64,000 nucleotides of DNA from Nitrospira sp. (GTDB taxonomy: Bacteria > Nitrospirota > Nitrospiria > Nitrospirales > Nitrospiraceae): NCBI GenBank assembly GCA_005116835.1, contig SWDM01000016.1, positions 314,351 through 378,350 of the forward strand. Direction: 5' to 3'. Shown one piece after another: positions 21,838 to 59,858 of this stretch. The notes beneath the pieces were generated by a model that saw only the letters and a program-made list of their open reading frames with translations, had not been told where the DNA came from and ran no database searches. Position numbers and translations under genes: made by a program. How positions within the stretch are numbered: the first letter of the stretch is position 1; each line of letters opens with the position of its first letter.

Positions 21838-22545
21838 TCAACCGGCGGCACGTTCATCAAGGCCCTGCTTGTGAGCCACGATGAGCAGCTGTTGGCGGGA
21901 GGAGACTTGCAGTTTGCTATAGATCGACGTGAGGTGATGGCGGACGGTCGTGTCGGAGACATACAGCCTATCCGCAATACCCTTGTTTCTGAGACCCTTG
22001 GAGATCAACACGATGATCTCCCGTTCTCTTGTAGTCAGGCTGTCAATAGACTCTGGAGAGACAAGATCCTTGCTTCCGGCTGAAGATATGTCGCGGATTT
22101 GACAATCGGCAGATTGCACAAATCGATCGCCCGCGGGTCTTGAGGCAAAACCGGACAGAGACTCAATGGCGGCAATCAACACGGCAGGAGGTTGAACGTT
22201 CAGCACGACCCCTTCTGCGCCGGCCGATAAGGCATCGACGGTCGGCTTTGAATCGTTCAAGCCGCTCAGCACCAAGATACGCGAAGCTGCAAATGACACG
22301 CGCAATTCTCTGATGACTGCCGACGGATCTGCCTCGGACAGGTCCAAGTCGACGATGATGACCTGCGGCTTTTCCCGGACGACAATATCCCTTGCATGGG
22401 CGCCTACAGGGATGTCAACGATTTTTGAAATGAGAGGATCTGTTCCCAAGATCAGATGCAACCCCATGCGAATGACATGATTGCCGGTAATCAGCCCTAC
22501 GCAAAGGAATCGGCTACTCGACTCTTGGTTAGTCAACGGCTGCAA
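21838..22545 (-). CDS. LuxR/NarL-type regulator with degenerate receiver (left flank)
   Basis: It starts at TTG 22545 behind GGAGAAATACC. The receiver-like domain spans residues 10-130 and keeps the phospho-acceptor Asp (VIIVDLDLS) and the Ser of LVLSGLN. The acidic Mg-binding pair is replaced (LITGNHVIRMGL instead of LIDDHP), and the conserved Lys is Asn (GVVLNVQPP). The C-terminal HTH is canonical: SLTTREREIIVLISKGLRN, KGIADRLYVSDTTVRHHLT, SIYSKLQVSSRQQLL. A paralogue with the same losses lies at 59,115-59,858. It is divergent from the exopolysaccharide locus, so local control of that locus is a reasonable inference. Confidence 0.88.
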   Translation of the reverse strand: MQPLTNQESSSRFLCVGLITGNHVIRMGLHLILGTDPLISKIVDIPVGAHARDIVVREKPQVIIVDLDLSEADPSAVIRELRVSFAASRILVLSGLNDSKPTVDALSAGAEGVVLNVQPPAVLIAAIESLSGFASRPAGDRFVQSADCQIRDISSAGSKDLVSPESIDSLTTREREIIVLISKGLRNKGIADRLYVSDTTVRHHLTSIYSKLQVSSRQQLLIVAHKQGLDERAAG

Positions 22546-23314: not shown

Positions 23315-24061
23315 GTGAAAAACTACGGAGAAAAAAGGGACATTCAGACGATGTGGGATTTTGGAAAGACCGTTATAACGTGCACGTTCGTATCTAAGAA
23401 ACATGCCCAGTCTAAATGGGAACGAATAAGACAGAGGCCCTCTCCAACGATGGGACCAAGAGGGCGAAGCTCTATCGATCAGAAGGGGAACCCACAGTCT
23501 GTGATGTTGCACAATTGCCCAGCCGCTTCTTGGTATGCGCTGCAGACACGTTCGCGGCACGAAAAATTGGTGCGAGATCGCCTTACCGGCAGAGGGTTTG
23601 AGCCATTGCTGCCCCTGAGCAGGCGTCTGAGTCAGTGGTCGGACAGAAAAACTTGGATCGACGCTCCGCTATTCTCCGGTTTTTGCTTTGCAAGATTTTC
23701 GCTCCATGACCAGTTGGCGGTGCTGACACTGCCCGGCGTCATCAGAATTGTGGGATGCAATGGACCTGAAGCCATTCCGGATGAAGAGATGATCTCCCTT
23801 CAAAAGCTGGCCGTCAGCAGACTGGATTGCGAACCCCACCAATACTGTGAAGAAGGAATGCTTGTCGAAGTGATCGAGGGCCCGCTCGCAGGGGTCAGAG
23901 GAACCTTTCTTCGGAAAGCCGGCCGCGATTGTGTTGTGGTTCGAGTACGTCTGATCCAACAATCTGCATCGGTACAGGTCGCGCGCAGCAATATCAGACC
24001 GGTATGCAATTCAAATAACATCCCGTTAGCAGATCACACTCAGTCACTGTCAGCTCGGTAA
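23315..24061 (+). CDS. NusG-paralogue transcription antiterminator
   Basis: GTG 23315 follows AGGGGGAATAGACC. Residues 1-63 have no recognisable similarity, so a start at ATG 23504 is possible. From residue 70 the NusG N-terminal domain reads ASWYALQTRSRHEKLVRDR, GFEPLLPLSRRLSQWSDRK, APLFSGFCFARFS, LPGVIRIVGCNGPEAIPDE. A KOW segment follows: GMLVEVIEGPLAGVRGTFL and then VQVARSNIRPV. Specialised NusG paralogues (RfaH, UpxY, LoaP types) sit at the head of long polysaccharide operons and suppress early termination. Its place as first gene of a 35-kb co-directional locus fits that role. Confidence 0.88.
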   Translation: MKNYGEKRDIQTMWDFGKTVITCTFVSKKHAQSKWERIRQRPSPTMGPRGRSSIDQKGNPQSVMLHNCPAASWYALQTRSRHEKLVRDRLTGRGFEPLLPLSRRLSQWSDRKTWIDAPLFSGFCFARFSLHDQLAVLTLPGVIRIVGCNGPEAIPDEEMISLQKLAVSRLDCEPHQYCEEGMLVEVIEGPLAGVRGTFLRKAGRDCVVVRVRLIQQSASVQVARSNIRPVCNSNNIPLADHTQSLSAR

Positions 24062-29950: not shown

Positions 29951-30089
29951 TCAGGATGCTCAAAAAGGGCCGTCCTCGTCGTTCGTGAAACGTGAAGCGT
30001 GAAACGTCCGAGTCCGGAAACGAACGACGCTTCACGAGATACGCTTCACGGGTTCGATCGCGCTGCCGGCGGACTTTTTCAGCATCCTG
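29951..30089. repeat. C-family element with an A-family repeat inside
   Basis: The outer ends are caggatgctcaaaaagggcc (29,952 on) and gcggactttttcagcatcct (30,069 on), as in the C family at 55,891. The interior from 29,986 to 30,053 is instead the A family: gtgaaacgtgaagcgtgaaa, then a tccgagtccgga centre, then acgcttcacgagatacgctt. One repeat thus lies inside another. Confidence 0.65.
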
Positions 30090-43483: not shown

Positions 43484-44764
43484 GTGAATAAGATCAAAGT
43501 CGCGCATGTGACGACCGTTGCCCAATCGTTACAGGGCCTTCTGTTGAATCAAATGAACAGCATTCAATCAAAGGGGTACGAGGTGGTCGGCATCTCCTCG
43601 CCGGGAAGGGAAGTCCCCATGATCGAGAAAGCCGGCGTCAGGCACATTGCGATCGGCATCAGCCGCAATGTAACCCCGCTGCTCGATCTGATCTCACTGA
43701 TGCGTCTCTATTCGGTTATGCGACAGGAAGGCTTTACGATCGTCCATACCCACACTCCCAAAGCGGGATTGCTGGGCCAACTCGCGGCTCGTTTGGCCGG
43801 TGTGCCGATCGTAATAAACACGGTTCACGGTTTCTATTGTCATGACCTCATGCATCCGATCTTGCGCCGTTTCTATATCGGCCTTGAGAAAGTAGCAGCG
43901 CGCTGTTCAGATCTGATCTTGGCGCAAAACCAAGAAGATATAGAGATGGCCCTTTCCATGGGAATTTGCTCCCCCGAAAAGATCAAACACTTGGGTAATG
44001 GAATTGACCTGTCCTCCTTTAGTCGGGATCGAGTTAAGACAGGAGACATTCGCATAAAACGCCAGCAGCTTGGCATACCGGATGACGCGAAGGTCGTGGG
44101 GTTCGTCGGCCGATTAGCCGGAAAGCGGAAAGGCTTCATCGATTTCCTCAAGGCCTGCCAACGCGTCGCCGGACAGCACCAGAATGTGCGGTTTTTGATC
44201 GCCGGCGAAGCGGATGCAGGCAAAGCCGACGCAGTCAGCCCTGGGGCCGCCAAGGATTATGGAGTTTCCGATCAATGTCTGTTTCTCGGAGCGCGTCCGA
44301 ATGATGAGCTACCGAGCCTCTATGCATTGATGGATGTGCTCGTGCTGCCATCCCTCTTTGAAGGAATCCCACGGGTCGTCATGGAGGCTGCGGCCATGGG
44401 TGTGCCGGCTGTGGTCACCGATGTGAAGGGTAATCGGGAGGCCGTCATGCACGGCCGCAACGGCCTGCTCGTACCATTGGGTAACCCCCAAGCCTTAGCG
44501 GAGGCGATTATCGATCTCCTGACGAACCAGGAGAAAGCGAAAGGCATGGGGGAGGAAGCCTATCGCATGGCCCTGGAGCAGTTCGATGAACGTGTGGTAT
44601 TCGCGAAAGTGGTCAATGAATATTCGGGATTGCTGGCGGACAAAGATCTCCGACTTCCTGTATCCAATTCAACGGCTACCGAGCCGGCGCGCGCTTCTTC
44701 AAACGGGCGGCCAACGTATGCTCGACGGCTGTCGGTGCTCTCAAGAGAAGACCTCCCACGTTGA
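43484..44764 (+). CDS. Glycosyltransferase family 4 (fourth)
   Basis: I choose GTG 43484 because GGAGGAA lies three to nine bases upstream; an ATG at 43472 precedes the site. The protein opens KIKVAHVTTVAQSLQGLLL, has TIVHTHTPKAGLLGQLAAR (a WbpH/CapM-type segment), VVGFVGRLAGKRKGFIDFL as hinge and LPSLFEGIPRVVMEAAAMG as donor site. A basic C-terminal extension (ARASSNGRPTYARRLSVLS) is unusual. It is a retaining sugar transferase. Confidence 0.88.
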   Translation: MNKIKVAHVTTVAQSLQGLLLNQMNSIQSKGYEVVGISSPGREVPMIEKAGVRHIAIGISRNVTPLLDLISLMRLYSVMRQEGFTIVHTHTPKAGLLGQLAARLAGVPIVINTVHGFYCHDLMHPILRRFYIGLEKVAARCSDLILAQNQEDIEMALSMGICSPEKIKHLGNGIDLSSFSRDRVKTGDIRIKRQQLGIPDDAKVVGFVGRLAGKRKGFIDFLKACQRVAGQHQNVRFLIAGEADAGKADAVSPGAAKDYGVSDQCLFLGARPNDELPSLYALMDVLVLPSLFEGIPRVVMEAAAMGVPAVVTDVKGNREAVMHGRNGLLVPLGNPQALAEAIIDLLTNQEKAKGMGEEAYRMALEQFDERVVFAKVVNEYSGLLADKDLRLPVSNSTATEPARASSNGRPTYARRLSVLSREDLPR

Positions 44765-44918
44765 GGTCACTTCCCCACCCAATATGATGAATTGTTCTGT
44801 CCAAGCGCCGCTGGCAAGAACAGGGACCGACGCCTAGCTTTCGGACCCTGGCATGCTCATCCGAGTAGGGCATGGAGCCGGTTAGGCCTACGCAAAGATC
44901 GCAATAGGAGGATCACAG

Positions 44919-46022
44919 ATGTCGACGTCGTTTAAAGTATTGACTGCGGATACAGATCAAGGCGAGATTTGGGATGCCGTCGTTGCCGGCATAGACCGGT
45001 GTGACGTGTACTTTCATAGGTCCTTGTGCCAAGCGTTTGCAGCATACGAAGGATGCGTCGCGCGCTTGGCGCACTTTCGTCACGGCGACTCCGTGATCGT
45101 CTATCCGTTCTTTCAGCGCCGCATCGCGTCATTGCCGTTCCTGCAGTCGCCCCAAGACTGGAACGATTATTCCGACATCGTCTCTCCCTACGGGTACGGC
45201 GGGCCCCTGGCACAGATAGCGGCGGATAGCGAGGAAGAGAGCGGACGGATATGGCCGGAGTTTCTGGAGGCGTTTCACGCCTACTGCCTGGACCACAATA
45301 TTGTCAGCGAATTTGCGCGCCTGCATCCCTATCTGCAGAACCATCGCCACTTGGACCTGTCGAACGGGCTCGAGCGGCGCAGCACAATTGTGACCGTGGA
45401 CCTCTCTCAATCGGAAGAGGAAATCTGGCGGGGATTTACGAAAGAGAACCGGAAAAAGATCGGTCGCGCGCAGGCGAACGGGCTGCGGGTGGAAGAAGCC
45501 AACAGCCCGGCCGATGTGCAACTGTTCTCCCGGCTCTATCATCTCAATATGCAGCGGCTGCAAGCGCGTGACTGGTATATGTTTCCTGAATCCTGGTTGA
45601 GCGACCTGCATGCCCGCTTCTCAGAACACCTCACGCTGTTCCTTGTGTTCGAAGGAGATCGCGTCATAGCCGGCGGGTCCATGTTTCATATGAACGGACT
45701 CGTCAGTAACTTTTTATCGGCGACGGCGGAGGATCCTGGACAGTGTTCGCCGAATAATCTCTTATTCTATGAAATTATCCGGTGGGCCAAGCGCCGTGGG
45801 TATCGCTGGTACAACATGGGGGGCGGATACCGGACTAACGATGGTGTGATGCGGTTCAAACAGAACTTTTCCCAGCACACTGAGGATTTCTATACCTATC
45901 AAAAGGTGCATCTGCCCCAAGCCTATGAGGCGCTGGTTCAGGAATGGCGCCAGGCCCTTCCATCGACAATCGAACTGGAAGAAAGCAAGTACTTCCCGCT
46001 GTACCGAATGATCCCGCAATAG
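44919..46022 (+). CDS. FemAB/GNAT-like protein (second)
   Basis: ATG 44919 follows AATAGGAGGATCACAG. Two GNAT-type lobes are visible: N-terminal YFHRSLCQAFAAYEGCVAR with DSVIVYPFFQRRI, then TIVTVDLSQSEEEIWRGFT, KENRKKIGRAQANGLRVEE, LNMQRLQARDWYMFPESWL, FEGDRVIAGGSMFHMNGL and GYRWYNMGGGYRTNDGVMR. This is the peptidoglycan-bridge/FemAB-like arrangement. In exopolysaccharide loci these proteins may attach amino acids or acyl groups. It differs clearly from the proteins at 24,246 and 56,131. Confidence 0.82.
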   Translation: MSTSFKVLTADTDQGEIWDAVVAGIDRCDVYFHRSLCQAFAAYEGCVARLAHFRHGDSVIVYPFFQRRIASLPFLQSPQDWNDYSDIVSPYGYGGPLAQIAADSEEESGRIWPEFLEAFHAYCLDHNIVSEFARLHPYLQNHRHLDLSNGLERRSTIVTVDLSQSEEEIWRGFTKENRKKIGRAQANGLRVEEANSPADVQLFSRLYHLNMQRLQARDWYMFPESWLSDLHARFSEHLTLFLVFEGDRVIAGGSMFHMNGLVSNFLSATAEDPGQCSPNNLLFYEIIRWAKRRGYRWYNMGGGYRTNDGVMRFKQNFSQHTEDFYTYQKVHLPQAYEALVQEWRQALPSTIELEESKYFPLYRMIPQ

Positions 46023-46107
46023 GGAGAGGCGATGAAGCGGTCGTAGCGCTTCTCGATCACCTCCGATTTCACAGAGCCTTATTCGCTGAAGCCAGAGGCC
46101 GGCATAT

Positions 46108-46551
46108 ATGAAAACCGTCGTGCTTTATGCCTCGAGTCATGGATCGACCCGAAGGGTCGTCAAAACGCTTGCTGAGACGGTCCAATTTTCATTCGACTGT
46201 TTCGATGTCAAGAATCTCACGGACTCGAGTTCGATGGGCAAATACGATGTATTTCTCTTTTTTTCCCCGACCTATGGGAACGAAGAGCTTCAGCCGGACA
46301 TGGAGAAGTTCATCGTCAATTTCAGGCTGGATATGTCGAGCAAGTACTATGCGATCTGCGAACTCGGCAACTACTACGGGTATGAAGCCGATTTCGGCGC
46401 CATGAAAATTATCCGGCATCATCTGGAGAAACTATCCGGCAAGGAACTGGTCGGCCCTCTGTCGATGGATAGTCTGCCGAAAAAAGATTGGACAGCTTTC
46501 GCCACCTGGTGCGGAAAACTCAACCAAACTCTGCGAGAGACCCATGAATGA
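46108..46551 (+). CDS. Flavodoxin-like protein (147 aa)
   Basis: The flavodoxin fold is clear: strand and phosphate loop VVLYASSHGSTRRVVKTLA, the 60s-loop FFSPTYGNEELQPDMEKFI, and the 90s-loop ELGNYYGYEADFGAMKIIR, so FMN binding is likely. The length is normal for short flavodoxins. The last eight bases overlap the start of the LRR gene, implying coupled translation. No obvious redox partner is nearby, and flavodoxins are not usual members of polysaccharide loci. Confidence 0.82.
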   Translation: MKTVVLYASSHGSTRRVVKTLAETVQFSFDCFDVKNLTDSSSMGKYDVFLFFSPTYGNEELQPDMEKFIVNFRLDMSSKYYAICELGNYYGYEADFGAMKIIRHHLEKLSGKELVGPLSMDSLPKKDWTAFATWCGKLNQTLRETHE

Positions 46552-47509
46552 CTTCGACGCCATCGACCTGTTGAAGAAGAAGGTCGGGGTTCCCTTTCAC
46601 TACCGATTTGAGAATGAACGGTGCGTGGAGCTCGATCTCGCGTCTCAGGACTATATCTTCCGCGGACTTGTCCGCCATCATACGCAAGCGGAAAAATCCG
46701 AAATCCTTTGCGTGATTGCAGGCCTGACATATTTGGAGCGGCTGAACCTTCGTAGCAATATGTTCCATTCGATACCGGACTACTTCGGCAATCTGACACA
46801 CTTACGGTATCTGGATGTGAGCTCGAATCATTTAGAAAAGGTTCCCCTGTGGATTCAGGAAATACAGGATTTGGAACATCTCAATCTGTCGGCTAACGAA
46901 ATCGGCGAACTGCCCTCGTTCTTGAGCAAGTTTCACAATTTGAAAACATTGCGTCTCCATAAGAATACGTTCCGGATCTACCCCGATGAATATGGCGTCT
47001 TTGCACAGCTTGAGTTGCTGAACCTGTATAGCAGTCGATTGAAATACATTCCTTCCTTCATTTTTGACTATTCAAAATTACGAGTGCTGGCTTGGGGAGT
47101 GACGCCGATCGCCGAGCTCCCGGCGGACATCGAACGACTACAAGAGTTGGAGTGTTTGATGTTGCAGTGTAACTGCGTGAGGGTTCTTCCGGAGTCATTG
47201 TGCGGCTTAAAACGTCTGAAAGGCCTGTTTCTCCTTCAAAACAAACTCAGGGAATTGCCAGAGGACATCGGCAATCTGGAACACTTGGAACACATGACCT
47301 TGTATCAAAACGAACTCGCCGGCTTGCCCGCGTCTTTTGAGAATTTGAAGAATCTTAAGAAGCTGAATCTTGCGTGGAATCGATTCGAGGAGTTGCCCCC
47401 CGTCGTCATGAGCTTGCCGAAGTTAGAGTGGTTCGGGTTTTTTTACAATCCCATCCGGGGCGATTTGCCCAAACTGAAACACATTAAGGAAGTGATCCTG
47501 GAGAAGTAG
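46544..47509 (+). CDS. Leucine-rich-repeat protein (321 aa)
   Basis: ATG 46544 overlaps the flavodoxin frame. After an N-terminal cap of about 55 residues (RGLVRHHTQAEKSEILCVI) there are about eleven 23-residue repeats of the 'typical' LRR class, e.g. LTYLERLNLRSNMFHSIPD, LTHLRYLDVSSNHLEKVPL, LKRLKGLFLLQNKLRELPE. It has no signal peptide or membrane segment, so the solenoid is cytosolic and should bind a protein. It ends with LPKLKHIKEVILEK. The partner is unknown; coupling points to the flavodoxin. Confidence 0.85.
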   Translation: MNDFDAIDLLKKKVGVPFHYRFENERCVELDLASQDYIFRGLVRHHTQAEKSEILCVIAGLTYLERLNLRSNMFHSIPDYFGNLTHLRYLDVSSNHLEKVPLWIQEIQDLEHLNLSANEIGELPSFLSKFHNLKTLRLHKNTFRIYPDEYGVFAQLELLNLYSSRLKYIPSFIFDYSKLRVLAWGVTPIAELPADIERLQELECLMLQCNCVRVLPESLCGLKRLKGLFLLQNKLRELPEDIGNLEHLEHMTLYQNELAGLPASFENLKNLKKLNLAWNRFEELPPVVMSLPKLEWFGFFYNPIRGDLPKLKHIKEVILEK

Positions 47510-47563
47510 CCGTCTCACCTGTTCAACGGAACCCTCAGTCCGAATCGCAAACAGCATTGCAGC

Positions 47564-48190
47564 GTGAACGATATGCTGAAACGCCTTCTAGACATTGTTG
47601 CAGCCTCTGTGGGCCTGATGGTTTCTGGCCCGCTCATGGTCGTAGTGGCGGTCATAATTCGCGCGACCATGGGATCGCCGGTGCTGTTCCGTCAGCGCCG
47701 CCCAGGCTTACACGGACGGATTTTTACGCTGTTGAAATTTAGGACAATGTCCGTAGACCGCGACCGCGAACGTCAATCTCAGTTCGACGCGCATCGCGTC
47801 ACGCCGCTTGGCCGAATACTCCGGCAGACCAGCCTCGATGAGCTGCCACAGCTTTTCAACGTGCTTCGCGGGGACATGAGCCTGGTCGGTCCGCGCCCGC
47901 TTTTGCCGGAATATCTTCCCTATTACAGCACTCGCGAACTCCTCCGACATACGGTCAAGCCAGGAATCACCGGGTGGGCTCAAGTGAACGGACGAAACCG
48001 CCTGTCTTGGGATCAGCGGCTTGAGCTCGACGTCTGGTATGCAGAGCATCGATCGTTGCGCCTCGATCTTCGCATTTTGTATTTGACCGCGCTCAGGGTG
48101 CTCCAGCGACGCGATATCAACCTGGATCCACGAGTGAATCTGCTGCCGCTCGATCGAGAGCGGTCCCATTCCTCGACTGTTCCCCGCTGA
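47564..48190 (+). CDS. Phosphoglycosyl transferase (PglC/WcaJ catalytic type)
   Basis: The 208-aa length and lack of extra N-terminal helices match monotopic PglC-type enzymes. After a re-entrant hydrophobic segment ([19 protein letters not shown]) come [64 protein letters not shown] (the catalytic DE pair lies in the SLDELP region) and [14 protein letters not shown]. It transfers a phospho-sugar to undecaprenyl phosphate, starting the repeat unit. GTG 47564 and ATG 47573 are possible starts. Confidence 0.9.
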
Positions 48191-48266
48191 ACTTCCGTTA
48201 GCCGCTTACACGTTCCTCGGTTATCACCACACATTGCACGGGCTATCACGCCGAAGGAGTATGATT

Positions 48267-49382
48267 ATGCAGCTCTCCATTATCCGTCCGACGCTTCCAT
48301 CGTTGAGCGACATTACACAGCTTGTCGGGCCGAGCTGGGATTCCGGCACCGTCACACTCGGTCCCACTGTCAGGGCCCTGGAAGAGGAGGCTTGCATCAG
48401 AACCGGCGCGCGCTACACTGTAGCGTTGTCGTCCTGTACAGCCGGACTGATGCTGATCCCCGGAGCCCTGGGGTTGCCGCCGGGGAAAGAAGTCATCGTG
48501 CCGTCGTTTACCTTCGCTGCGACGGCACAGGCCTTGTTGTGGAATGGGCTGATTCCTGTATTCTGCGACATTCTTCCGGGAACCTGCACCATTGATCCCG
48601 AAGACGTCGAACGGAATCTGTCTCCAGACACGGCGGCGATTTGCGGGGTGTCCATCTTCGGGTTGCCCCCCGACAATGAGGCCTTGCTCGAGTTGGGCCG
48701 TCGCAAAGGATTGCCCGTCTATTTCGACAGCGCACAGGGTCTGGGCGCAACCTATCACGGCCAGCCGCTGGGGGGGTTCGGTTCCTGCGAAATCTTCTCG
48801 ATGAGCCCGACGAAAGTCGTGACGGCGATCGAAGGAGGACTGCTCACGACGAACGATCGGGCCCTCGCGGAGCGAATCCGGTCCATGCGGGATTACGGCA
48901 AGGATCCGGTGAAGGGGGAAGAAATGCATCATCTGGGCCTGTCGGCCCGCATGAGCGAGCTTCATGCGGCGGTCGGGCTGCTCTCGTTGCGGATGATGGA
49001 TGAACTGGTGAAAGCGCGCAGGGAGCTCATTTCGATCTATCGGGATCGGTTGGGTACGCTCCCCGGCTGTTGGGTTCAGAAGTTTCCAGCCGACCGGACC
49101 ACCAGCGGAAATTATTTCGTCTTGTTTGTCACGGACAGGGCAAAACGGAGCCGGGACGAGGTCTACGAGGCGTTGAAGCTGGCCGGGATCCAGACAAAGC
49201 GATACTTCTACCCGCCGGTGCATGAGCAACTCCTCTTTCAGCGATTTCCCAAGCGTGTGAGCGTGAATCTGCAGCACACACCGAAGATCAGCCGGGAAGG
49301 CCTCGCGTTGCCGTTGTACTCACACACAACCCTGGAGGAAATGAATCACGTCTGTACGCAAGTCGAGCAGTTGCTCGGTTAA
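48267..49382 (+). CDS. DegT/DnrJ/EryC1-family PLP aminotransferase
   Basis: ATG 48267 is eight bases after AAGGAG. The fold-type I enzyme shows GPTVRALEEEACIRTGARY, ALSSCTAGLMLIPGALGLP, VIVPSFTFAATAQALLWNG, YFDSAQGLGA (PLP Asp/Gln), and FSMSPTKVVTAIEGGLLTT with the Schiff-base Lys in SPTK. Then HLGLSARMSELHAAVGLLS. Members aminate 4-keto sugars on nucleotide carriers. Together with the dehydratase at 50,170 and the PglC-type transferase at 47,564 it could supply a 4-amino-6-deoxy sugar. Confidence 0.88.
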   Translation: MQLSIIRPTLPSLSDITQLVGPSWDSGTVTLGPTVRALEEEACIRTGARYTVALSSCTAGLMLIPGALGLPPGKEVIVPSFTFAATAQALLWNGLIPVFCDILPGTCTIDPEDVERNLSPDTAAICGVSIFGLPPDNEALLELGRRKGLPVYFDSAQGLGATYHGQPLGGFGSCEIFSMSPTKVVTAIEGGLLTTNDRALAERIRSMRDYGKDPVKGEEMHHLGLSARMSELHAAVGLLSLRMMDELVKARRELISIYRDRLGTLPGCWVQKFPADRTTSGNYFVLFVTDRAKRSRDEVYEALKLAGIQTKRYFYPPVHEQLLFQRFPKRVSVNLQHTPKISREGLALPLYSHTTLEEMNHVCTQVEQLLG

Positions 49383-52128: not shown

Positions 52129-53394
52129 ATGACACGATCCAATCGGAATTCTACCTCGAGCGTCGGGCTCTGGCGTCTCATAAAATTGACCTGTTTATTC
52201 CTGATTGCGATGCTCGCGAACGGCGTGATGGTCGCCATTTCGGCTCAGCCCCAGAGCGAATATCAATATCAATTGGGGCCAAACGACGTGGTTCGCGTTC
52301 AGGTGTTCGGGGAAGAAGATCTTACGGTTGAAAGCAAAGTGGGTGGCGACGGCGCCATCAATTTTCCGCTGCTTGGCTCGGTCCCCATTGCCGGGAAAAC
52401 CATCAAGGAATTGCAGGAATACCTGGTAGGCCGACTGGCAGAGGGCTATGTGCGGTCGCCGAAGGTGACGGTCTTGCTGGTGCGCTACCGCAACTACTAT
52501 ATGCACGGGGAAGTGAAGACGCCGGGGGGCTATCCCTATGAAGCGGGGCTCACGGTGCAGAAAGCCATCAGCTTGGCCGGCGGCTTTACCGAGAAAGCCG
52601 AAACCAGGAGAATCGCTGCGACCAGGGTTGTAGGGGATCGAGCCGGCACGGTGATTTTAGGCATGGAGGCTCCCATCTTGCCCGATGACATCCTCGCTGT
52701 GGGCCCGATGCAAAAATTCTTTGTGAGCGGAGAAGTGAAGACGCCGGGACGTTACCCCTACGAGCCTGGGCTGACAGTCCAGAAGGCCCTATCGATGGCT
52801 GGCGGGTTGACCGAACGAGCAGACCCGGCCGGCATCAAGCTCACCCGGTTCAAGGAGTCCGGCGTCGAGACCGAAGTCGGCGCGCTGGAGACCCTGGTGC
52901 TGGCGGACGACATGCTCGCAGTCGAGGGCCTGAACCAGCGGCAGAAATTTTACATATCGGGCGAGGTCAGAACCCCGGGCCAATACTTCTATCAGCCGGG
53001 ACTCACCATCCAGAAAGCGCTGACGATGGCCGGCGGGTTCACCGACAAGGCGGATAAGGCCGAGGTAAAAGTGACGCGTTTCAACGGCAAGTCCGTTGAA
53101 ACGATGTTGCTGGAGGCGGACACAGTCATCATGCCTGACGATCTGCTCGTCGTCGTGCAAGCCAAGAAAATCTATGTCAACGGCGAAGTGCGGGCATCAG
53201 GCGCCTTTCCTTTTGAGAAGGGACTGACCGTGCATAAAGCCATCACGATGGCCGGCGGGTTTACCGAAAAGGCGGCCAAGACTTCGACGAAGGTGCTTCG
53301 CAACATCAACGGAGAGGAGCACACGATCGACGTCACACTCAATGCGTCGATCCTGCCAGAAGATATCATCGTCGTGCCGCAACGTTTCTTCTAA
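52129..53394 (+). CDS. Polysaccharide export protein with four SLBB domains
   Basis: ATG 52129 follows GAGGAGGCAACT. A signal peptide (CLFLIAMLANGVMVAISAQ) precedes a Poly_export domain (LGPNDVVRVQVFGEEDLTV, then AGKTIKELQEYLVGRLAEG) and four SLBB copies, each opening with a variant of SGEVKTPGRYPYEPGLTVQ and followed by KALSMAGGLTERA. The C-terminus is EDIIVVPQRFF. This is a Wza-like periplasmic/outer-membrane channel component. It lacks a clear outer-membrane helix such as that of Wza. Confidence 0.92.
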   Translation: MTRSNRNSTSSVGLWRLIKLTCLFLIAMLANGVMVAISAQPQSEYQYQLGPNDVVRVQVFGEEDLTVESKVGGDGAINFPLLGSVPIAGKTIKELQEYLVGRLAEGYVRSPKVTVLLVRYRNYYMHGEVKTPGGYPYEAGLTVQKAISLAGGFTEKAETRRIAATRVVGDRAGTVILGMEAPILPDDILAVGPMQKFFVSGEVKTPGRYPYEPGLTVQKALSMAGGLTERADPAGIKLTRFKESGVETEVGALETLVLADDMLAVEGLNQRQKFYISGEVRTPGQYFYQPGLTIQKALTMAGGFTDKADKAEVKVTRFNGKSVETMLLEADTVIMPDDLLVVVQAKKIYVNGEVRASGAFPFEKGLTVHKAITMAGGFTEKAAKTSTKVLRNINGEEHTIDVTLNASILPEDIIVVPQRFF

Positions 53395-53458: not shown

Positions 53459-54226
53459 ATGACCGTTCTTCGTCATCTTATAATTCTGTTCTTCACCGTC
53501 ATGCTTGTGTGCGAAGCCGGGGCCATTGAGATTCCAGGCCAACGCGACATCTATCGGATCGGACCGAACGATGTCATTCGGATACAGGTGTTCGGCGAGG
53601 AAGAGCTGTCCCTGGAACGGAAAATAGAGGGGGATGGCAAAATCGACTATCCCCTTTTGGGCACCGTTCCCGCCGAAGGCAAAACGGTTCAGGAGCTCCA
53701 GCAATATCTGACCTCACGCCTGGCATCGGGGTATCTCCGGAGCCCGAAGGTCAGCATCTCTATTGTGCGTCATCGTAACTTCTATGTGAGCGGGGAAGTC
53801 AAGACGCCGGGCGGGTTTCCCTATGAAGAGGGGCTCACTCTCCAAAAGGCCATTGCCATGTCCGGCGGGCTCACCGAAAAGTCGGACAAGACAGAAATCA
53901 GAGTGAACCGTGTAATCGGTCTGGTTGCGGCAAGTCTCAGGCTCGATCCGGACGCCCTCATCATGCCCGATGATCTCATTGTGGTCTCACAGGCACAGAA
54001 GTTCTACGTCAACGGCGAAGTGAGGAAACCAGGCGACTACCCTTATGAGAAGGGGCTCACGGTTCATAAGGCCATCACGATGGCCGGAGGATTTACTGAA
54101 AAGGCCTCGAAGGGTTCGACGAAGGTCTTGCGCAGCGTCAACGGGCAAGAGGAGACAATTGAGATGCCTCTCGATTCCTTAACTCATCCTGGCGACATTA
54201 TTGTTGTTCCTCAGCGGTTCTTCTAG
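53459..54226 (+). CDS. Polysaccharide export protein with two SLBB domains
   Basis: ATG 53459 follows AAAGGAGGAGGACA. A signal peptide (LIILFFTVMLVCEAGAIEI) leads to Poly_export (IGPNDVIRIQVFGEEELSL) and two SLBB domains (VSGEVKTPGGFPYEEGLTL, VNGEVRKPGDYPYEKGLTV). It ends GDIIVVPQRFF like its upstream neighbour, 64 bases away. The pair is a tandem duplication with loss or gain of SLBB units. Both may build one channel or serve as alternative exporters. Confidence 0.9.
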   Translation: MTVLRHLIILFFTVMLVCEAGAIEIPGQRDIYRIGPNDVIRIQVFGEEELSLERKIEGDGKIDYPLLGTVPAEGKTVQELQQYLTSRLASGYLRSPKVSISIVRHRNFYVSGEVKTPGGFPYEEGLTLQKAIAMSGGLTEKSDKTEIRVNRVIGLVAASLRLDPDALIMPDDLIVVSQAQKFYVNGEVRKPGDYPYEKGLTVHKAITMAGGFTEKASKGSTKVLRSVNGQEETIEMPLDSLTHPGDIIVVPQRFF

Positions 54227-58984: not shown

Positions 58985-59118
58985 CTGCATCACTCACGAA
59001 CACTTCTGTTTCAACCGTTACTGATCGGGCGAGAGGCCCGTGGCCAGAGGCTAGCCCCGCGCATCTCGCTTCAACATGAGCGATTGCAGCAGAAGCGCTC
59101 ACGAATAATGCGGGCTAG
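58985..59118. repeat. B-family-related palindrome at the right end of the locus
   Basis: The left part gcatcactcacgaacacttc and the right part gaagcgctcacgaataatgc (ending gcgggctag) are inverted relatives of the element at 43,341. A separate inner hairpin, atcgggcgagaggcccgtgg, lies between them. It occupies the gap between the convergent deacetylase and LuxR genes and may end both transcripts. Confidence 0.5.
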
Positions 59119-59858
59119 GTGTGAGCTTGGAATGACGCAGGCTGGTCTTGACCCGAAGAGGCAAATTCGACCATTCCTCGCTGATGAGCCATGATGAGCA
59201 GCTGTTGTCGGCTGGTGACATGCACCTTACTGAATATCTGGGTGAAGTGATGGCGGACCGTCGTTTCGCTAATGCACAATTTGTCTGCGATTTCCTTGTT
59301 TTTCAAACCCTTCGCCAGCGCATGCACGATGTCGCATTCTCGAGCTGTCAGGCTCTCGATAAACCCCCTACGCGATCCATCATTGCCTCGCTCTAAGGGC
59401 CTATCGCTGCGCAGACCGTGGGCTGGTTCCCCAGATATAGAAACCGCGGGCTTTGGCACAAAGCCGCACAGTGATTCAATAGCGGCAAAAAGCACGGCAG
59501 GAGGTTGAACATTCAGCACCACTCCTCCTGCACCAGAGGCCAAAGCCTCGCGTGACAACTTTTCATCGCTCAATCTGCCGAGCGCCAAGATATGCGAGTC
59601 TGCGGCTGCCGAACGCAACTCTCTGATGACCCTCAACGGGTCTGCATCGGACAGTTCCAAATCGATGATGCTCACCTGCGGCTTTCGCCGGACGACAATA
59701 TCCACGGCGGTGGCGCCCAAGGAGATGACATCGATGTCTGCCACGAACGGATAGTCTTTCAAGACCATTTGCAAGCCCATGCGCATGACAGGGTTGTTGC
59801 TGATCAATGCTATTCTAAGAAAGCGAGTATTCGATTCTTGGATGGGTGTCGGCGTCAT
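59115..59858 (-). CDS. LuxR/NarL-type regulator with degenerate receiver (right flank)
   Basis: ATG 59858 follows CCGGAGGACAACG. The domain order matches the left-flank paralogue. The receiver keeps the acceptor Asp (VSIIDLELSD) but has SN in place of the acidic pair (ALISNNPVMRMGL) and Asn in place of Lys (GVVLNVQPP). The HTH is ESLTARECDIVHALAKGLK, NKEIADKLCISETTVRHHF, TQIFSKVHVTSRQQLL. The shared substitutions suggest common descent after loss of the phospho-switch. Confidence 0.88.
   Translation of the reverse strand: MTPTPIQESNTRFLRIALISNNPVMRMGLQMVLKDYPFVADIDVISLGATAVDIVVRRKPQVSIIDLELSDADPLRVIRELRSAAADSHILALGRLSDEKLSREALASGAGGVVLNVQPPAVLFAAIESLCGFVPKPAVSISGEPAHGLRSDRPLERGNDGSRRGFIESLTARECDIVHALAKGLKNKEIADKLCISETTVRHHFTQIFSKVHVTSRQQLLIMAHQRGMVEFASSGQDQPASFQAHT

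Follow-up and report, generated by a model that had tools for sequence, protein, structure and literature searches.

Flavodoxins and leucine-rich repeat (LRR) proteins both belong to known families, and the pairing of the two considered here is an unusual, narrowly distributed combination of known folds; no flavodoxin-LRR gene pair was found described in the open-access literature searched. Known flavodoxins (PF00258; FldA, long- and short-chain) share with the Nitrospira protein the same profile and recognisable FMN phosphate, 50s and 90s motifs, whereas the Nitrospira protein, unlike those of the FldA type, has weak similarity to solved structures, scores below the NCBIfam cut-offs, is encoded by a gene overlapping an LRR gene and lies in an EPS cluster. 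Of the bacterial LRR structures, those nearest in sequence or in Foldseek comparison are the Leptospira proteins LIC10831, LIC12759, LIC11098 and LSS01692, with a low identity (21–29%) to the Nitrospira LRR protein, and to our knowledge none of the four has been linked to a flavodoxin or an EPS cluster. XrtA/PEP-CTERM-associated EPS clusters likewise combine a FemAB-type protein, a GT4, a sugar transferase and an Asn synthase, but TIGR03019, TIGR03088 and TIGR03025 all scored below their cut-offs in the Nitrospira cluster, and no exosortase gene was identified among its scanned genes. A working analogy is SHOC2, the cytosolic LRR scaffold of MRAS-SHOC2-PP1C, in which the concave surface is conserved and is the site of MRAS and PP1C binding, and the convex surface is variable (PMC9452295).

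The window (the whole 64,000-nucleotide stretch of DNA that was analysed) comes from a 3.94 Mb genome of the genus Nitrospira and holds the pair within the following features:

23315-58796, mostly + strand: host EPS cluster, delimited by Pfam scans
44919-46022, + strand: FemAB/GNAT-type acyl- or aminoacyltransferase (PF13480 and PF02388 above cut-off), directly upstream of the flavodoxin gene
46108-46551, + strand: short-chain flavodoxin ORF, 147 aa (Pfam PF00258 and PF12724 above cut-off)
46544-46551, + strand: 8-base overlap ATGAATGA, comprising the LRR start and the flavodoxin stop, read in the sequence
46544-47509, + strand: LRR ORF, 321 aa (LRR_14, LRR_4, LRR_8 and LRR_1 above Pfam cut-offs)
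47564-48190, + strand: initiating bacterial sugar transferase (PF02397), directly downstream of the LRR gene

The polysaccharide-operon setting proposed in the initial annotation is borne out by a Wzx/Wzy-type EPS gene set around the pair, as identified by Pfam: a NusG-type regulator, a BBP2 barrel, Wzz/BY-kinase, a MurJ flippase, GT4s, Wzy_C and Asn synthase, together with the FemAB-type protein, the sugar transferase, DegT, DUF218, a CapD-type epimerase and two SLBB export proteins. The overlap of eight bases between the short flavodoxin gene and the LRR gene, also noted at the outset, is exact and is kept in a second species (G005); the identical eight bases occur at the identical place both there and in G019, a third species, whose match equals that of the MAG CG24E. 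The flavodoxin gene follows the FemAB-type gene after 85 bases and the LRR gene is separated from the sugar transferase gene by 54 bases. Promoter and terminator scans of 44700-48400 gave no more sites than chance, with no terminator-like site on the + strand.

The flavodoxin exceeds the Pfam cut-offs for Flavodoxin_1 (PF00258; 41.4 bits, cut-off 25), placing it in the family, and for Flavodoxin_5 (PF12724; 39.7 bits, cut-off 27), and falls below every NCBIfam flavodoxin cut-off (FldA, the best, 53.6 bits vs 175; flav_short, 37.7 vs 123), with a best E of about 1e-5 against solved flavodoxins. A P-loop-like FMN phosphate motif (9-SSHGST-14) fits S/T-x-x-G-x-T, and the 50s-type loop (54-PTYGNEE-60) and 90s-type loop (85-ELGNYYGYEADFG-97) align with those of a solved long-chain flavodoxin. 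The protein is 92% identical to its orthologue in G005, in which all three FMN loops are unchanged, while its AF2 model (pLDDT 38) is too poor for a fold search. It is a flavodoxin-family protein carrying FMN-site motifs, with predicted FMN binding. The absence of a redox partner, part of the initial annotation, is borne out among the scanned neighbours of the pair but not genome-wide, where two stand-alone NAD(P)/FAD (FNR-type) reductase-like proteins and one other flavodoxin-fold protein are encoded. The latter (225 aa; L034 1369-2046, - strand, contig C10) has a signal-like N-terminus and is possibly exported.

The product of the LRR gene, the genome's only gene with LRR_8 matches, consists of an N-terminal cap region of ~60 residues, repeats spanning residues 62-314 and a short C-terminal tail. 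The repeats form eleven gap-free 23-residue units in tandem with the pattern LxxLxLxxNxLxxLP, the AF2 model is a solenoid (mean pLDDT 67), and neither a signal peptide nor a membrane segment was evident when the sequence was inspected by eye, all of which agrees with the cytosolic eleven-repeat solenoid first described. The type III effectors XopAE, XopL and XopAC were considered and rejected, scoring 139 vs 600, 112 vs 500 and 110 vs 450 bits, respectively, against the NCBIfam cut-offs, with the best stretches within the repeats.

With positions assigned to concave, buried and convex classes from the repeat register rather than a solved structure, 51/55 concave, 80/88 buried and 48/88 convex positions are invariant across the three species (concave vs convex, Fisher p 6.6e-7). 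The same bias is present at the codon level, with a dN of 0.015–0.030 for the concave and 0.155–0.178 for the convex face, whereas in four other Nitrospirota LRR protein pairs, which are more diverged, with few repeats matched and orthology not proven, the concave face shows no clear excess of conservation over the convex. A concave face as conserved as the buried core is what docking platforms like SHOC2 show, and both proteins are solenoids with a conserved concave and a variable convex face, although the Nitrospira protein differs in being bacterial, in having 11 rather than 20 repeats and in having no known client. The concave conservation supports a putative fixed client for the LRR protein and names none.

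Both genes are under purifying selection. Compared with G005, the flavodoxin of the source genome has a dN/dS of 0.073 and the LRR gene one of 0.113, the latter remaining at 0.10–0.13 over all three species pairs, and the flanking-gene segments tested fall at 0.10–0.20. Because the pair is intact in a second species and both of its genes are under purifying selection, it represents more than a chance arrangement.

Only a few Nitrospira species carry the pair, which is an optional extra and not a widespread module. The flavodoxin was recovered in 3/61 genomes in a search of relatives, and orthologues of the LRR protein and of the flavodoxin occur in the same 3/175 genomes of the family (the source genome, G000, with G005 and G019), so that the genes are linked wherever they are found in that set. 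Elsewhere across 396 Nitrospirota genomes there were just weaker, unpaired flavodoxin or LRR matches, and no flavodoxin match lay in the flanks of the thirteen further LRR loci that the phylum-wide search gave (L008-L020). A contig scan beyond Nitrospirota, sensitive to close relatives alone, yielded CG24E plus a single unrelated partial match of 34%. Rare adjacency elsewhere had been named as counting against the interpretation; Nitrospirota and this single scan for close matches showed no further case of adjacency, but no further orthologues either. The DegT gene, which marks this type of EPS cluster, is present in 13 family genomes. Three of them carry the pair, whole or truncated, a fourth (G436) has just the LRR remnant described below, and in the remaining nine neither gene was matched in the fetched stretch. 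Since nine clusters of the same type are without both genes, the pair is accessory and not a core part of the EPS cluster.

We tentatively favour, at somewhat under even chances, a reading in which a fixed client docks on the LRR protein as its scaffold and the flavodoxin is an FMN redox arm that adjusts a step of EPS production, with the binding, the FMN and the target all inferred. The LRR protein would act as a SHOC2-like docking scaffold whose concave face binds a fixed partner protein, and the flavodoxin, co-translated with it, would either take electrons from a general cellular reductase to the partner assembly or signal the redox state to that assembly. The partner assembly would most plausibly be an EPS-locus enzyme located in the cytoplasm or at the membrane surface, and the role of the pair would be to adjust the amount or composition of EPS to the redox state, not to make EPS production possible. 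This arrangement is supported by the joint occurrence in 3/175 genomes, the shared overlap, the low dN/dS, the invariant FMN loops, the concave bias with its parallel in SHOC2, the position of the LRR gene or its remnant just before the sugar transferase gene in four genomes (one of another genus) and the reductase genes, and is countered by the truncation in CG24E, the nine EPS clusters without the pair and the restriction of orthologues to only three species.

At the CG24E locus, flavodoxin codons 1 to about 40, including the FMN P-loop, are missing and the LRR gene is intact. The branch dN/dS of the CG24E LRR gene, derived by hand from pairwise values, is ~0.11, so no relaxation is seen, while the surviving flavodoxin segment has a branch dN/dS of ~0.19, a weak hint of possible relaxation. 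These junctions come from a MAG; provided that it is correctly assembled, CG24E speaks against a complex in which both proteins are obligatory. Because selection still acts on the LRR gene there even though the first ~40 flavodoxin residues are gone, the partner of the LRR protein may be something other than the flavodoxin. Nor does the overlap carry the fixed ratio and complex originally deduced from it: short start-stop overlaps are frequent in operons, the eight bases are by themselves no proof of either, and in CG24E an intact LRR gene stands beside a flavodoxin without its P-loop. The main rival to the scaffold model draws on the same observations and holds that the genes are independent neighbours, a free flavodoxin carrier (e.g., a low-iron substitute for ferredoxin) and an LRR scaffold that has an EPS partner of its own, their overlap being compact packing. 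The reductase-type proteins of the genome could serve such a free carrier, and a remnant in another genus (G436, below) is of the LRR gene only. We rate this as less likely than not and slightly below the scaffold model, given that flavodoxin orthologues are found only alongside the LRR gene and inside a polysaccharide cluster, with gene order and overlap conserved.

The FemAB-type gene is intact in G005 and split in G019, where its 3' part is missing from the locus and is found on another contig (the two parts at L043 3961-4676 and L044 8093-8680). The moved 3' part ends beside ATGCTGAAAAAGTCCGCCAG, near copies of which are at 30066 and 55992 of the window.

In G364 and G445, in which the pair is absent, the GT4 and sugar transferase matches are ~100 bases apart, while in G436, from another genus, a remnant of the LRR gene (residues 273-321, the last 49 codons and the stop) lies between the GT4 and the sugar transferase. 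The remnant shows that two genera or more have had the LRR gene at this position, whether inherited or transferred. The LRR gene or its remnant is directly upstream of a sugar transferase gene in all four genomes that carry it, a placement that would suit an LRR protein acting, with or without the flavodoxin, as a non-redox assembly factor for either the initiating sugar transferase or the FemAB-type transferase, the flavodoxin fold serving as a binding domain; the unrelaxed selection on the LRR gene in CG24E would suit it as well. Such a role is nonetheless unlikely, as the three FMN loops are intact and invariant, unlike those of a redox-dead fold, the sugar transferase occurs without the LRR gene in nine clusters, and CG24E keeps the LRR gene although its FemAB-type gene is split.

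The patchy distribution, the CG24E truncation and the G436 remnant would also fit a passenger inside the EPS cluster, either selfish or in decay, such as a defence gene set, a toxin or mobile cargo, as would the GC content of the pair (48–49%), which is below that of most flanking genes (55–59%). Purifying selection on both genes stands against a passenger, as does the GC3 of the pair, which is similar to that of the flanks and lends no support to recent import as the source of the low GC. A defence system was rejected with no PADLOC profile match at E 0.01, and mobile cargo with a flavodoxin tblastn that was empty in plasmids and gave one 31% match, an unannotated record, in phages. An LRR relative was not found in the viral contigs searched, and plasmid LRR matches in Vibrio and Neochlamydia had no annotated flavodoxin among their neighbours, for which the gene tables are incomplete. 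Overall, a passenger is the least probable of these explanations and, in our estimation, very unlikely.

Returning to the redox-tuned scaffold, its bolder form, an undescribed bacterial redox switch formed by an FMN flavodoxin mounted on a SHOC2-like LRR scaffold and controlling polysaccharide initiation or decoration in response to the redox state of the cell, seems improbable to us. The suggestion that the pair is a redox-sensing module controlling an enzyme of the locus found no evidence tying it to any EPS enzyme, and nine homologous clusters are without it. The interpretation first offered is partly supported: linkage, the conserved overlap, purifying selection and the concave face, conserved as a fixed binding partner would require, speak for it, and the evidence runs against an obligate complex and against any need for it by this EPS cluster type. 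Were the redox-tuned scaffold true, polysaccharide assembly would gain a connection to a flavodoxin, and client binding would become a role of a cytosolic LRR protein in bacteria; we know of no precedent for a flavodoxin tied to polysaccharide assembly via a client-binding bacterial LRR protein. As the evidence stands, the pair is a well-bounded two-gene set with a predicted binding face in a few Nitrospira species.

Several other features of the cluster were observed. The NusG-type protein (23315-24061, + strand; PF02357) heads the EPS cluster and is possibly an RfaH/LoaP-like antiterminator, and similar-looking response-regulator-type genes are located at each end of the cluster (21838-22545 and 59115-59858, both - strand), the latter with receiver and LuxR-type domains by Pfam. 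The cluster of G005 (L041, L042) has second copies of the Asn synthase, a polysaccharide deacetylase-like gene, a GT4 and part of a sugar transferase, and in the source genome the two SLBB export proteins (52129-53394 and 53459-54226) are in tandem and look duplicated.
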